Shown: positions 3,732-58,717 of the stretch, one piece after another
How positions within the stretch are numbered: position 1 is the first letter of the stretch
How the letters are laid out: each line of letters starts with the position of its first letter
Source of the DNA: Nafulsella turpanensis ZLM-10
GTDB lineage: Bacteria > Bacteroidota > Bacteroidia > Cytophagales > Cyclobacteriaceae
Length of the DNA: 64,000 nucleotides
Reading direction: 5' to 3'
NCBI RefSeq assembly: GCF_000346615.1
Contig: NZ_ANNU01000032.1
Location: 1 to 64,000, forward strand
The notes under the pieces: generated by a model
The model's database searches: none
Seen by the model: only the letters and a program-made list of their open reading frames with translations
What the model was told of the DNA's origin: nothing
Translations under genes and position numbers: made by a program

Positions 3732-5822
3732 ATGACAAAATCTGTCTTTATTGCCACCACAGAACCCTATAGCGGAAAATCCATTATTGCACTGGGCCTC
3801 GTGGATATGCTCTTAGGAAAAGCCCGCAAAGTAGGTTATTTCAAACCTGTTATCAATACTTCATCCGGCGAAAAGAAGGATGCTCATATCGAAACGATTG
3901 TCAGCTATTTTAAGCTCGACATTCCTTATGAGGAAACCTACGCCTACAGCCGCCAGGAGGTAATGCAGCTGATTGATGCCGGTAAGCAGGGCGAAATTTT
4001 CGATACCATCATCAGCAAATATAAAAAGCTGGAAGAAGAGTATGACTTCATCATTGTAGAAGGCAGCGATTTTTTAGGCGAGGGTACGGCATTTGAGTTT
4101 GATGCCAATGTTTCCATTGCCAAAAACCTGGGGGCCCCTGTTATTATTGTTATTTCGGGCGAAGGAAAAACCACCGCACAAACCATTAATTCTGCCCTGG
4201 CAGCCAGCCGCAACTTTCAGGTAAGGGATTTACAGGTACTCAGCCTGATTGCCAATAAGGTAAGGCACGACCAGGTAGAGGATGTGCGGGAACTGCTGGA
4301 AAAACAACTCTCCGACCGCATTAACTGTGTGGTAATTCCTTCCGACCCAAGCCTTAAAAGCCCTACCATTAAGGAAATAGTTGATATTATTGGAGGCAAA
4401 CTGCTGTTTGGAGAGCAGCATCTCAGCAACCAGGCCGACCATTTTATAATGGGCGCCATGCAGGTGCCTAATTTCCTGAACCATATTAAAGATAATGTAC
4501 TAATTGTTACCCCGGGCGACAGGGGCGATATTATTATGAGTGCGCTGCAGGCTCACATCTCGGCGAATTACCCTAAAGTAGCCGGCATAGTGCTTACGGG
4601 TGGCTTTGAGCCGGAAGAACCTATTATGCGCCTGATCCAGGGCCTTGAAACGGTTGTTCCTGTTATTGCGGTGCAGTCAGCCTCTTTCCTTACTGCCACC
4701 AGAATCGGCGCTATCCAGTCGCGCATCAGTCCTGATAATGAGAAAAAAATTCAGCTGGCCATTAATACCTTTAAGAAATATGTAGATGTACAGGCACTGG
4801 ACGAAAGGCTGATTACCTTTAAACCCGAAGGCATGACGCCCCATATGTTCCAGTACCAGCTGGTAAAATGGGCCCGCCGGAAGAAAAAACATATTGTATT
4901 ACCGGAAGGGAATGATGAGCGAATCCTGCGGGCCACTGCAAGACTGATTGCTCAGGATATCGTAGACATTACCCTCCTGGGCGATGCCAATGAAATTGCC
5001 GGCATCATTCGGAGGCTTGGAATTAAGCTCGAGCTGGAGCAGATTAACATCATCCAGCCTACTGCCTCTGAAAAATATGAGGATTATGTGGAAACCCTTT
5101 ATGAGCTTCGGAAAGAAAAGAACGTGCAGCTGGAGATGGCCCGCGACCTGATGACGGATGTTTCTTACTTCGGCACCATGATGGTGTATAAAGGACATGC
5201 CGATGGAATGGTTTCGGGGGCAGTGCATACCACTATGCATACCATTCGCCCGGCCCTGCAGTTTGTAAAAACCAAACCCGGAGTATCGGTGGTATCGTCT
5301 GTATTTTTTATGTGTCTGCCCGACCGGGTGTCGGTTTTTGGCGACTGTGCCGTAAACCCGAACCCCACGGCCGATGAGCTTGCGGAAATTGCCATTTCCT
5401 CGGCCGAAAGCAGCCAGCGCTTCGGCATCGAGCCACGGGTAGCCATGCTCTCTTATTCCAGCGGCACTTCCGGCGCCGGGGCCGATGTGGAAAAAGTTCG
5501 TATGGCTACAGAGATAGTACGAAAAGAGCGGCCCGAACTAAAAGTAGAAGGACCCATTCAATACGACGCCGCCGTTGACCCTTCGGTAGGCAGACAGAAA
5601 ATGCCGAACTCAGAGGTGGCCGGGCAGGCGAGCGTGCTTATCTTTCCCGACCTGAACACAGGCAATAACACCTACAAAGCCGTTCAGCGCGAAACAGGAG
5701 CCCTGGCCATTGGTCCTATGCTGCAGGGCCTTAACAAACCTGTAAATGACCTGAGCCGCGGCTGTACCGTAGATGATATTTTCAATACCGTTGTTATTAC
5801 GGCCATACAGGCACAGGAATAG
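3732..5822 (+). CDS. pta: Phosphate acetyltransferase (long, multidomain form)
   Basis: Pta converts acetyl-CoA and phosphate to acetyl phosphate and CoA; with AckA it makes ATP and acetate, or works in reverse for acetate uptake. The 696-residue protein is the long form. An N-terminal P-loop/BioD-like domain has EPYSGKS near residues 11-17, a DRTGG-type regulatory domain lies in the middle (about 215-325), and the catalytic PTA_PTB domain spans about 375-690. The latter shows LPEGNDERIL, the SYSSGTSGAG segment and the PVNDLSRG stretch typical of the C-terminus. A well-formed promoter precedes it, and ackA follows after 144 bases that are mostly heptamer repeats. The long form is usually allosterically controlled through the N-terminal part. 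Confidence 0.96.
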   Translation: MTKSVFIATTEPYSGKSIIALGLVDMLLGKARKVGYFKPVINTSSGEKKDAHIETIVSYFKLDIPYEETYAYSRQEVMQLIDAGKQGEIFDTIISKYKKLEEEYDFIIVEGSDFLGEGTAFEFDANVSIAKNLGAPVIIVISGEGKTTAQTINSALAASRNFQVRDLQVLSLIANKVRHDQVEDVRELLEKQLSDRINCVVIPSDPSLKSPTIKEIVDIIGGKLLFGEQHLSNQADHFIMGAMQVPNFLNHIKDNVLIVTPGDRGDIIMSALQAHISANYPKVAGIVLTGGFEPEEPIMRLIQGLETVVPVIAVQSASFLTATRIGAIQSRISPDNEKKIQLAINTFKKYVDVQALDERLITFKPEGMTPHMFQYQLVKWARRKKKHIVLPEGNDERILRATARLIAQDIVDITLLGDANEIAGIIRRLGIKLELEQINIIQPTASEKYEDYVETLYELRKEKNVQLEMARDLMTDVSYFGTMMVYKGHADGMVSGAVHTTMHTIRPALQFVKTKPGVSVVSSVFFMCLPDRVSVFGDCAVNPNPTADELAEIAISSAESSQRFGIEPRVAMLSYSSGTSGAGADVEKVRMATEIVRKERPELKVEGPIQYDAAVDPSVGRQKMPNSEVAGQASVLIFPDLNTGNNTYKAVQRETGALAIGPMLQGLNKPVNDLSRGCTVDDIFNTVVITAIQAQE

Positions 5823-5857
5823 TGATTAGTGGTGGGTCATGAGTAGTGAGTCCTGAG
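5823..5857 (+). repeat. Five heptamers of the GTcatGA type after pta
   Basis: Directly after the pta stop, five consecutive 7-base units read GTGATTA, GTGGTGG, GTCATGA, GTAGTGA, GTCCTGA. They resemble, on the opposite strand, the units before the dnaE2-like gene at 21412. Period 7 cannot encode an in-frame peptide repeat of one unit. Confidence 0.75.
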
Positions 5858-5880
5858 AAAAAAGCAGCACCTTGCCTCCA

Positions 5881-5964
5881 ATCTCAAATCCTAAATCCTA
5901 AGTCTTATGTCTTATGTCTTATGTCTTATGTCTTATGTCTAACTTCTAACTTCTAACTTCTAAT
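5881..5964 (+). repeat. Twelve-unit heptanucleotide tandem repeat before ackA
   Basis: The 84 bases form twelve unbroken 7-base units: ATCTCAA, ATCCTAA twice, GTCTTAT five times, GTCTAAC, TTCTAAC twice, TTCTAAT. The block stops two bases before the ackA ATG, so the leader of any ackA message starting upstream carries it. Slipped-strand copy-number change is possible. Its effect on ackA expression is not known. Confidence 0.93.
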
Positions 5965-5966
5965 AC

Positions 5967-7166
5967 ATGAACATATTCGTTATCAATTCCGGCAGCAGTT
6001 CTATTAAGTACCAGTTATTTCGTTTGCCATCGGAGCTGCCGGTTTGCAGTGGATTAGTTGAGCGGATAGGGCTGGAAAATTCTCTCATTATGCATAAGGT
6101 GTACCGGGAGGGAGAAGAAGAGGTAGTTCGCAAAAGCATAAAGTTACCCGACCACGAAGCCGGATTAAAAGAGGTGGTAAACCTGCTAACAGATGCGAAG
6201 GTTGGGGTAATTCAAAATCTGGACGATATTGAGGTGGTAGGCCACCGGGTGGTACATGGGGGCGAAAGCTTTGCCGCCACAACCCTCATTACTCCGGAGG
6301 TAAAGGCAGAGGTGAAGAAGCTCTTTGCCCTGGCTCCCCTTCACAACCCCTCTAACTACCTCGGCATTGAGGTGGCCGAAAAAATCTTTTCCAAAGCCAG
6401 CCAGGTAGCCGTTTTTGACACTGCCTTTCACCAGAGTATGCCTGAAAGGGCCTACCGCTATGCTGTCCCTAATGAGTTATATTCCAGGGAAGGCATCCGT
6501 GCCTATGGTTTCCATGGTACCAGCCACAAGTATGTTGCGCAGGAAGCCGCTCGTTACCTGAATAAAGCAGACAGCAAGCTGATTACCATCCACCTCGGTA
6601 ATGGCTGTAGCATGACGGCCGTCAAAAACGGAAAGTCGGTTGACACCAGTATGGGTTTTGGTCCGTTGGGAGGCTTGATAATGGGCACCCGTTCCGGCGA
6701 TATTGACCCTTCCATCCTCTTCCACCTCATCCGGCAGGGCAGGTATACTGCGGATGAGCTTCATACCCTGCTGAACAAAAAGAGCGGCATGCTGGGATTA
6801 ACCGGCTACAGCGATATGCGCGATGTAGGCAGGGCAATAGTAGAGGGCAAGGAAGAAGCAAAGCTCGCGCATGAGCTCTATGCCTATCGGATTAAGAAGT
6901 ATATCGGCGCCTTTGCCGCTGTACTCAACGGGCTGGATGCGATTGTTTTCACCGCCGGTGTAGGTGAAAATGATGCCAGTGTGCGGGAGGCAGTTTGCCG
7001 GAATATGGACTACCTGGGTATAAATGTCGATGTGGAAAAGAATAAAGAACGCAATGGGCGACTGCGCGAAATAAATACGGAAGATTCCCGGGTAAAAGTG
7101 CTTGTAATTCCTACCAATGAAGAGCTTGAAATTGCCCGGCAGTGTTTCGAGATGCTGAACAATTGA
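5967..7166 (+). CDS. ackA: Acetate kinase
   Basis: AckA transfers phosphate between acetyl phosphate and ADP, giving ATP and acetate. The 399-residue protein has the expected size. The ASKHA-fold signatures are present: phosphate-1 segment NSGSSSIKYQLF (residues 7-18), the VVGHRVVHGG segment, DTAFHQSMP, FHGTSHKYV, GFGPLGGLIMGTRSGDIDP and the C-terminal GVGEND. It follows pta in the same direction. The gap is occupied by heptamer repeats and contains no obvious terminator, so the two genes could be co-transcribed or ackA could have its own start within the repeat. Confidence 0.97.
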   Translation: MNIFVINSGSSSIKYQLFRLPSELPVCSGLVERIGLENSLIMHKVYREGEEEVVRKSIKLPDHEAGLKEVVNLLTDAKVGVIQNLDDIEVVGHRVVHGGESFAATTLITPEVKAEVKKLFALAPLHNPSNYLGIEVAEKIFSKASQVAVFDTAFHQSMPERAYRYAVPNELYSREGIRAYGFHGTSHKYVAQEAARYLNKADSKLITIHLGNGCSMTAVKNGKSVDTSMGFGPLGGLIMGTRSGDIDPSILFHLIRQGRYTADELHTLLNKKSGMLGLTGYSDMRDVGRAIVEGKEEAKLAHELYAYRIKKYIGAFAAVLNGLDAIVFTAGVGENDASVREAVCRNMDYLGINVDVEKNKERNGRLREINTEDSRVKVLVIPTNEELEIARQCFEMLNN

Positions 7167-9714: not shown

Positions 9715-10734
9715 TTACTGCAGTACACCTATAACGGACTCAGAAAAACGCTCCATTTCTTCCAGCTGCGGACTGCACTGCAGCAGGAAGAAGTCCACTC
9801 CTACTTTTTCGAAAGCAGCAATCTGGTCCTGCACCTGGGCGGGGGTGCCGGTTAAACCGCTACGCAGGCCGCGATTCGATACTGAATAATCTTCGAGCGA
9901 GGGTTTATGCTGCAGCTGTGTATTCGCCAGCCACTCCTGGTAATTTTTGTAGCTGACAGAGCTGGCTTCCACATTTGTAATGCGCTCCAGCTCCTTTTTT
10001 ACCTCCTGCTCATTATTTCGGACGATGGAATAAGCAGCCACACCAAACTTCATTGGCGGAAGGCCCTTTTGTTCGCGGCGCTGCTTCATATCGGCTATTT
10101 TTTCACCAATCTGTTCCGGGCTGGCACCATGCATTACATAGCCATCGCACTGGCTGGTAATCATATTCCGAGCCGCTTCCGATTCCCCTCCTGCATAGAG
10201 GAAGGGCTTTTTAGCTGGTTTTGGCTGCAGTACATTATCAGCTACCTGGTAGTACTTTCCTTCATAGCTTACATGGTCTTTTTCCCAGAGGCGATGAATA
10301 ACTTCAATCCATTCGCTGGTACGGGCATATCGGTCGTCGTGCTCTTCAAAATCAATGCCGTATTTTAAGGCCTCGGTTTTCCACCAGGAAGCCACCACGT
10401 TCAGCGATATTCTATCGCTACTGATGTGGGCCAGGTTTGCCACCTGCTTTGCCAGCAGGGCCGGATTATGAAAGGTAGGCCGTACCGCCACCATAATTTC
10501 CAGTTCTTTGGTAACAGCTGCAAGGGCTGCTGCCGTAGACCAGGCATCCATGGAAGGCGCCTCCTCCCCTTTTATATCGTTCAGGTATAATTCTGCAATC
10601 AGGCTAAGACTATAGCCCCAGTCTTCGCTCTTTTGGGCCAGTGTGCGAATGTAGTCCCAGGAGATATCCATTTTTTCATCCTCTACATTCCGCAGCCAGC
10701 CGCCAAATACGGGTAACCAATATCCAAACTCCAT
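9715..10734 (-). CDS. LLM-class flavin-dependent oxidoreductase (bacterial luciferase-like monooxygenase)
   Basis: This 339-residue TIM-barrel protein has the features of FMNH2-dependent monooxygenases of the SsuD/SfnG group. These are the N-terminal strand FGYWLPVFGG, the conserved segment VAVRPTFHNPALLAKQVANLAHISSDR (shown here as its start and end around residues 85-112), LNVVASWW, and YAGGESEAARN near residue 180. Relatives cleave C-S bonds or oxidise other small molecules using reduced flavin supplied by a reductase; no reductase is next door. The start lies one base past the stop of the ATP-grasp gene, so the two are almost surely translated together. That pairing suggests a tailoring step on a product of the ligase (inference). 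Confidence 0.88.
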   Translation of the reverse strand: MEFGYWLPVFGGWLRNVEDEKMDISWDYIRTLAQKSEDWGYSLSLIAELYLNDIKGEEAPSMDAWSTAAALAAVTKELEIMVAVRPTFHNPALLAKQVANLAHISSDRISLNVVASWWKTEALKYGIDFEEHDDRYARTSEWIEVIHRLWEKDHVSYEGKYYQVADNVLQPKPAKKPFLYAGGESEAARNMITSQCDGYVMHGASPEQIGEKIADMKQRREQKGLPPMKFGVAAYSIVRNNEQEVKKELERITNVEASSVSYKNYQEWLANTQLQHKPSLEDYSVSNRGLRSGLTGTPAQVQDQIAAFEKVGVDFFLLQCSPQLEEMERFSESVIGVLQ

Positions 10735-57889: not shown

Positions 57890-58717
57890 ATGAAGATAGA
57901 GGCCACTGCACCTGCCCGCAGGCGAAATAATCTGTTCCTCATTCTTTCCGGCATTTTCCTTACCAATGCCATTCTTGCCGAGCTCATTGGTGTCAAAATT
58001 TTCTCGGCCGAAGGGAGCCTGGGGCTTCCGCCCGCCCAAATCCCCTTACTGGATAATTTCAGGCTGGACTTTAACCTTACTGCCGGGGCTATTATCTGGC
58101 CGCTTGTGTTTGTTACCACCGATATTATTAATGAATATTTTGGTCCGAAAGGAGTCAGGAAAATAAGCTTTCTCACTGCAGGCTTAATCCTCTATGTTTT
58201 CGGGGTAATTCTGCTGGTAACTGAGCTGGAGCCGGCTGCTTTTTGGCTGGAGGTAAACCGGACCGATGCTGAAGGAAGGCCCTTTGATATTAACACGGCC
58301 TTTAATGCTGTTTTCCGGCAGGGAATGGGCATTATAATCGGTTCCCTTACCGCCTTCCTTATTGGTCAGCTGCTCGATGCATGGGTATTTCAGCGCCTGA
58401 GAAGCATTACAGGATCTAAAAAAATATGGCTGAGAGCAACCGGCTCTACTCTTATTTCTCAATTAGTCGACAGCTTTGTCGTGCTCTTTATAGCCTTCAA
58501 ACTGTTTGGCAACTGGTCATGGCCACAGCTTATTTCCGTTGCCCTAATCAACTATCTCTATAAATTTGTAGTAGCGGTTCTGCTCACCCCACTTCTCTAC
58601 CTGGCTCACTACCTGATTGACCGTTATCTTGATGGCCGTCACCACGGTGGCCGGCATTCCGGTGGCCGTCACCACGGTGGCCGACATCCCGGTGCAACTG
58701 AGAATGCTGGTCTCTAG
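57890..58717 (+). CDS. yhhQ: Queuosine-precursor transporter (YhhQ/VUT family) with a His-Gly-Arg tail
   Basis: The 275-residue inner-membrane protein has about six helices. The family signature is LAELIGVKIFS, then FVTTDIINEYFG near residue 75, which marks transporters for queuosine precursors (preQ0/preQ1 type). The end is unusual: after the last helix (VALINYLYKFVVAVLLTPLLYL) comes a tail RYLDGRHHGGRHSGGRHHGG continuing to the stop. It is encoded by four 15-base tandem units at 58634-58693. The tail is not part of the family and could bind metal ions. It lies 3 bases after rnz, so the operon concerns tRNA maturation and modification. Confidence 0.88.
   Translation: MKIEATAPARRRNNLFLILSGIFLTNAILAELIGVKIFSAEGSLGLPPAQIPLLDNFRLDFNLTAGAIIWPLVFVTTDIINEYFGPKGVRKISFLTAGLILYVFGVILLVTELEPAAFWLEVNRTDAEGRPFDINTAFNAVFRQGMGIIIGSLTAFLIGQLLDAWVFQRLRSITGSKKIWLRATGSTLISQLVDSFVVLFIAFKLFGNWSWPQLISVALINYLYKFVVAVLLTPLLYLAHYLIDRYLDGRHHGGRHSGGRHHGGRHPGATENAGL
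58634..58693 (+). repeat. Four 15-bp tandem repeats in the transporter gene
   Basis: Units are GGCCGTCACCACGGT, GGCCGGCATTCCGGT, a second exact copy of the first, and GGCCGACATCCCGGT. Each codes for Gly-Arg-His-x-Gly. The identity of units 1 and 3 hints at recent expansion. Confidence 0.9.

Follow-up and report, generated by a model that had tools for sequence, protein, structure and literature searches.

Convergent heptamer arrays between pta and ackA of Nafulsella turpanensis resemble arrays at other gene edges of its genome and of related Cytophagales

The window, the stretch of 64,000 nucleotides of contig NZ_ANNU01000032.1 of Nafulsella turpanensis ZLM-10 analysed here, carries pta and ackA as neighbours on the same strand, separated by a gap of 144 nt (5823–5966) that is largely filled by tandem heptamers (Table 1). 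As a sequence-only reading had counted, 17 heptamers cover 119 of the 144 bases: five directly 3' of the pta stop (the R arm, 35 bases) and a run of 12 (the Y arm, 84 bases) that ends, in the phase used there, two bases before the ackA ATG. Depending on the phase, the end of the Y arm lies 1–2 bases 5' of the start codon. The 12 units had been called unbroken, and they are contiguous but exact in part only. Read in the other phase, the arm is TCTCAAA, TCCTAAA, TCCTAAG, TCTTATG five times, TCTAACT three times and TCTAATA, so that eight heptamers are exact copies of one of two units and the remaining ones are degenerate. Tandem Repeats Finder reported GTCTTAT in 5.6 copies at 5902–5940 and TCTAACT in 3.7 copies at 5938–5963, both at 100%. 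No two of the five heptamers after pta are alike, and this array was detected at a threshold of 12 and missed at 13, so that it passes a low detection threshold only.

Table 1. Features of the pta–ackA region (positions in the window)
Feature	Coordinates	Strand	Remarks
pta, phosphate acetyltransferase, long form (696 aa)	3732..5822	+	NF004167, TIGR00651 over cut-off
R arm of five degenerate heptamers, abutting the pta TAG stop: TGATTAG TGGTGGG TCATGAG TAGTGAG TCCTGAG	5823..5857	+	
Core separating the arms, AAAAAAGCAGCACCTTG	5858..5874	.	
Outer end of a thirteenth, degenerate heptamer (CCTCCAA, 5875–5881)	5875..5880	+	by eye
Y arm, 12 contiguous heptamers before the ackA ATG	5881..5964	+	
ackA, acetate kinase (399 aa)	5967..7166	+	TIGR00016 over cut-off

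The self-match in 42-base windows peaks at 39 for lag 7, against at most 29 for lags 3–6 and 8–13; over this array lag 14 also gives 36. Three consecutive TCTTATG units with up to three mismatches gave five overlapping matches in the window, all of them here, and none in 100 dinucleotide shuffles. A chance origin of the heptamer runs is excluded, and the array is, as had been described, real, non-coding and adjacent to the ackA start codon. The heptamers after pta had been taken for a second type; they are present, but carry the motif of the Y arm in reverse orientation. When reverse-complemented, the Y arm reads ...TTAGAAG TTAGACA TAAGACA..., with the same TNAG pattern as TTAGTGG, TGAGTAG and TGAGTCC in the R arm. 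Judged by their letters, both unit types belong to a single degenerate motif that is turned round from one arm to the other, TNAGWNN (or NNTNAGW) in the R arm and WCTNANN in the Y arm.

A known RNA family was rejected, as Rfam gave no match in 5600–6200 up to E = 1. Simple consensus scans of the same interval found no promoter-like or terminator-like sites, although Bacteroidota promoters use sites of a type other than the sigma-70 consensus scanned. Within 5903–5966, the TCTTATG units place an ATG every 7 bases 5' of ackA, and one of these opens a short frame, MSYVLCLMSYV, that ends in a stop.

We compared the placement of arrays in relatives for two gaps, pta–ackA and metH–metF. The named genomes closest by AckA belong to Cesiribacter, namely sp. 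SM1 (L199, 74%) and C. andamanensis (L200, 72%), and N. turpanensis may lie in or next to this genus. These two and a third genome, G001 (together the three nearest, at 72–74% identity), as well as G002, have both arms in the pta–ackA gap, made of other units. The gap measures 97 and 98 nt in L199 and L200 and 146 nt in G001, in the order R arm, core, Y arm, with units of the TATTGAG and CAATACC types in the two Cesiribacter genomes and of the GTTAGTT (five copies) and CTTGACT types in G001. The gap of G002 (AckA 66%) spans 277 nt and holds TAGATTT-type units and a long TCTTGTT...TCTTATG arm. G022, next in AckA identity (69%) after the three nearest, has a gap of 23 nt with no array, and arrays are likewise lacking from the pta–ackA gaps of G010 (19 nt) and G017 (11 nt). 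Among 25 other named Bacteroidota in which the upstream pta could be read, 22 have no array in this gap and three have a detected one, each on the pta side (L207, L208, L221); the gap is 12 nt or less in 10 of the 25. Outside these 25 fall L201, with another upstream frame, and L206, L212, L218 and L244, which were unreadable. In G015 (L017), a 15-nt array of CCTAATAACCATTAA, in about seven copies, ends before ackA in the place of the heptamers, and its unit could be a sum of 7 and 8.

The metH–metF gap has R and Y arms in N. turpanensis (G000) and G001, where in either genome a single arm was detected and its counterpart seen by eye, and no arrays in G002, G010 and G022, where it measures 3, 51 and 56 nt. 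No array was detected upstream of metF in G015, G017, G018 and G013, in which the upstream gene is perhaps not metH. At pta–ackA, both the sequence and the number of the units differ between species (one genome per species). In the two gaps compared, near relatives keep the element at the same site, with turnover of its units and their counts.

Arrays of this kind are not confined to pta–ackA. We sampled 0.46 Mb of the N. turpanensis genome (9.6%, window included) and about 0.4 Mb from each of G001, G002 and G056, with genes called by a simple home-made ORF finder that places starts approximately. Period 7, taken with 14, was the leading tandem-repeat period in three of these four genomes; G056 had equal numbers for it and for lag 12 (15 each at a lower threshold). 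A period-7 motif fitted over all arrays of a genome, with strand and phase left free, carried 4.0–4.3 bits in the four genomes against 2.8–3.3 bits in six phase-permuted controls per genome. The fitted unit was WCTNANN in G000 and G001, of TCTT type in G002 and AT-rich in G056. Nine gaps of the sampled N. turpanensis sequence bear arrays, which speaks against the array as a device for ackA. They include gaps beside aspS and beside a dGTPase gene, and spoT–fur, hisA–hisF, hisF–hisIE, ferredoxin–metC-like, pta–ackA and metH–metF, where all names except pta and ackA are readings of the translations. Gaps between co-directional genes are preferred: arrays occur in 50 of 546 of these, but in 6 of 191 gaps between divergent genes and in 6 of 138 between convergent ones.

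Of 59 genomes from the order, 37, N. turpanensis included, have a pattern of three CT.A..T units, the matches per genome ranging from 0 to about 200 over the set. In G000, the whole-genome count was 24 against 3 for the backward control, and 10 against 0 for four units, but in several genomes the control was equally frequent (G001: 126 against 102), and these counts alone are weak evidence. A GC hairpin outside the arrays was rejected as a general part of the element: it occurs in 0 of 9 array gaps of G000, 1 of 17 of G001 and 7 of 21 of G002, compared with 13 of 180, 6 of 134 and 6 of 137 array-free gaps, an excess in G002 only. Two observations concern single gaps. In G002, positions 10162–10852 of L089 (G002:C14:40001-60000) hold four Y-form array blocks in one 831-nt gap; two of the blocks, spaced 192 nt apart, share an identical stretch of 89 nt, and the blocks seem tandemly duplicated. 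In L070 (G000:C19:100001-120000), the spoT–fur and hisF–hisIE gaps both hold TGTCATTGCGAG...GCAATCTC in opposite orientations (by eye), apparently another dispersed repeat.

The orientation of the arrays follows the edges of the gaps. In the four sampled genomes whose motif is of CT/AG type (G000, G001, G002 and G018), the R form lay at the left gap edge and the Y form at the right for 67 of 77 arrays between genes (10/11, 20/21, 24/30 and 13/15, respectively), irrespective of gene direction and with no distinction of stops from starts; this count left aside, from 93 arrays, 7 within coding sequence and 9 at the ends of the sampled stretches. When each gap was counted once, the rule held in 53 of 62 cases. 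Among the 67 rule-following arrays, 44 have an end no more than 10 nt away from the gene border. The sequence-only reading had tied the heptamers to start codons; stops are bordered at least as often (38 against 29 of the 67 in the four genomes). Three fresh genomes were tried after the rule had been formed: G018 fitted, G052 did not and G013 had a single array. By fitted labels the rule is unmet in G056 (8/18), G052 (13/24) and G013 (0/1).

Two counts that use the words themselves bear on the same asymmetry. AG repeated at lag 7 was enriched 1.37- to 2.51-fold in left gap parts and CT repeated at lag 7 1.51- to 2.39-fold in right gap parts of G000, G001, G002, G056 and G052, G002 showing also a CT enrichment of 1.49 on the left; the pattern is present in these five of seven genomes and absent in G018 and G013. 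Clusters of two-unit arrays, counted without gene calls, formed 35 convergent against 15 divergent pairs over the seven genomes (9:2 in G000, 9:4 in G001, 9:4 in G052, 1:0 in G018 and 1:0 in G013), with no convergent excess in G002 (3:3) or G056 (3:2). For three-unit clusters, the numbers were nine convergent (two in G000, two in G001, four in G052 and one in G018) and none divergent in any of the seven. Counted by word position, which weighs long arrays more since one array counts several times, two units at lag 7 gave 68:16 in favour of convergence; a comparable excess was absent at lags 6, 8 and 9 from G000, G001 and G052, although G013 gave 9:2 at lag 6.

Both arms share a gap more often than expected in G001 (7 against 0.71) and G002 (7 against 1.24), weakly so in G052 (3 against 0.55) and not significantly in G000 (1 against 0.09) or G056; in G018 they never do. 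The arms of a pair matched their own partners no better than arms from other gaps of the same genome (mean percentile 0.52, SE 0.09, n = 17), so their pairing is a property of the shared motif and not of matched copies. Own-arm complementarity as proof of fold-back copying was rejected on the same figure.

We folded 12 array gaps, eight from G000, G001 and G002 with both arms detected and shorter than 420 nt and four added by hand. Their mean folding z was −2.29, and −2.16 with each segment shuffled apart, ranging from +1.28 to −5.45 with five of the 12 below −3 and four above −1; co-directional gaps without arrays had a mean of −0.79 with 12% below −3 (60 of 150 folded). The pta–ackA gap of the window folds little better than its shuffles (z −0.71, −1.18 and −1.07 in three runs). 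The corresponding gap reaches −3.49 in Cesiribacter sp. SM1 and forms a nearly unbroken stem in C. andamanensis (−7.83). By these models, mRNA pairing of the two arms is possible, being strong in some relatives and weak in N. turpanensis.

On this evidence we tentatively favour, short of real confidence, the view that the pta–ackA gap is one member of a genome-wide set of convergent heptamer-array elements, lengthened by slippage and possibly forming hairpins between co-directional cistrons. From the anatomy observed, we infer slippage, transcription and effect. The arms would lengthen and shorten in 7-nt steps through slipped-strand replication, with a few unit positions kept. The elements sit between genes, mostly co-directional ones, with the R arm starting at one edge and the Y arm ending at the other. 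On a pta–ackA transcript the R arm would precede the Y arm, and the two could pair into an intercistronic hairpin of variable strength. Such a hairpin would separate ackA from pta, loosen their coupling and could shift the relative translation or stability of both cistrons. As the predicted hairpin is weak in N. turpanensis, any effect there would be small or length-dependent. A function of the element is a prediction, and the main rival of this view follows close behind.

That rival, a neutral satellite, is a serious though somewhat doubtful possibility: 7-nt arrays would arise and turn over, functionless, wherever a spacer tolerates a change of length. Slippage of this kind fits the variation of units and counts among relatives with constant flanking genes, the lack of a common theme (by eye) among the nine array-bearing gaps, the avoidance of divergent, promoter-rich gaps (6/191) and the small share of arrays in coding sequence (7/93, four genomes). 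From slippage alone, however, one would not expect arms that face opposite ways or that occur together in a gap, nor unit positions common to separate arrays.

Less probable by far is an array of DNA sites for a heptad-binding protein, a nucleoid protein or a regulator, as with the RHH protein Omega/ParB of pSM19035. In the account of that system available to us, the parS heptads form a plasmid centromere with six sites of unit WATCACW, an Omega dimer binds one 7-bp repeat, in direct or inverted order, and the ParA ATPase is fully activated only with four contiguous repeats (PMC9499535). The arrays here share with the heptads the contiguous 7-bp units in direct and inverted arrangement (PMC9499535); the units of the arrays have fixed and variable positions. 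They differ in that the WATCACW unit is absent and the units do not fit it (by eye), and the unit sequence shifts between relatives.

The sequence-only reading had proposed a contingency locus in which the number of leader units tunes ackA against pta. The exact 7-nt run near the start codon and the difference in unit number between species would suit such a locus. Against it, the same kind of array stands at unrelated genes and at stop codons, and G010, G017 and G022 have gaps of 11–23 nt with no array. Given its genome-wide presence and its occurrence at stops, the array is hardly an ackA-specific device, and we consider this reading most improbable. Scarcely credible is a REP/BIME-like palindromic element mobilised by a RAYT transposase. 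The inverted arms, the intergenic position and the short gaps at the same place in relatives recall such elements; yet G001 has 26 arrays in 0.39 Mb while neither it nor G000 has a Y1_Tnp (PF01797) match, the nine cores look unrelated (by eye), and arms and units differ from locus to locus with no single conserved palindrome sequence. G-quadruplex formation was rejected, the Y arm having no GGG on either strand and the R arm a single one; with no G-tract per unit, the architecture cannot rest on quadruplexes. Stop codons in every frame fail as a purpose, as the G002 unit (CAAGA/TCTTG) carries none.

Heptanucleotide repeats have a longer history in bacteria. Mrazek and colleagues reportedly described in 2007 long simple sequence repeats of heptanucleotides, with 7 nt as a favoured unit length; as two later papers describe it, theirs is a statistical class without polarity or paired arms, unlike the arrays here. 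The closest known system, in the parts of the literature available to us, is that of the G-rich heptamer repeats (GGGANTN)n around GGGAATC in Xanthomonas and GGGGA(C/T)T in Nostoc, which are convergent and gene-proximal, with 70 and 75 convergent pairs reported (PMC4692102). In the part of that paper available, the authors identify no regulatory role and frame the repeats by G-quadruplex formation (PMC4692102). So far as that account goes, the arrays described here resemble them in the 7-nt unit with fixed and variable positions, the intergenic location, the convergent pairs, the under-representation of divergent gaps and the retention, for the most part, between the same genes with length and sequence changed; they also share the polarity at gene ends, in four of seven genomes, not in G056, G052 or G013 by fitted labels (PMC4692102). 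They are unlike them in lacking the G-tract on which those units are built, here as in the fitted motifs of four genomes (PMC4692102).

A second set of parallels comes from the TAACTGA direct repeats that MacGregor (2015) reported in Beggiatoaceae, Cyanobacteria and five Bacteroidetes. In the part of that work available, the arrays mostly end a few bases before start codons in a Beggiatoaceae genome, with 2–6 copies per set in the main genome and up to 43 elsewhere, and 36 sets are split by related 7-mers; Flexibacter litoralis has one set reversed directly 3' of a stop codon, and other heptamer repeats stand beside TAACTGA in some Bacteroidetes gaps (PMC4679880). The Y arm, in one orientation and ending 1–2 nt before the ackA start, is similar, while the many unit dialects and paired arms here contrast with one defined unit and one inverted repeat in that account (PMC4679880). 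The TAACTGA unit is absent from the pta–ackA gap. Complemented and rotated, it reads TCAGTTA and fits the R form TNAGWNN, so that TAACTGA forward before starts has the Y-form polarity found here.

These parallels allow a broader reading, in which the Xanthomonas, Nostoc, Beggiatoaceae and Cytophagales arrays form one cross-phylum gene-edge class with the polar consensus TNRGDNN as R form, kept up by a shared, quadruplex-independent mechanism that would read or produce 7-nt units and point them outward from genes. We regard it as unlikely, if a little less so than the heptad-binding protein. All five published units tried fit the loose TNRGDNN, a consensus drawn post hoc that 29% of all heptamers match when rotations and both strands are allowed; the strict TNAGWNN, which 10% match, accommodates only TAACTGA and GTGATTA.

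Among the matches listed in the open-access literature, subscription journals being mostly outside it, no title concerned polar, paired heptamer arrays in Cytophagales. What is new here is a convergent gene-edge heptamer architecture without a G-tract per unit; the architecture itself was already known. Its occurrence without such tracts means that G-quadruplexes are not the general cause of this architecture and directs attention to mechanisms that act on the inverted arrangement as such, be it mRNA hairpins, hairpin-mediated copying or a binding protein, and it bears on why bacteria favour 7-nt repeats. It is also a warning that leader repeats before a metabolic gene need not mean gene-specific regulation. 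As the elements occur also in named, sequenced genomes (the two Cesiribacter records), they are open to transcript data and reporter tests. Elsewhere in the window, at 58633–58694, lies a 15/30-base tandem repeat of TGGCCGTCACCACGG-like units in about four copies.
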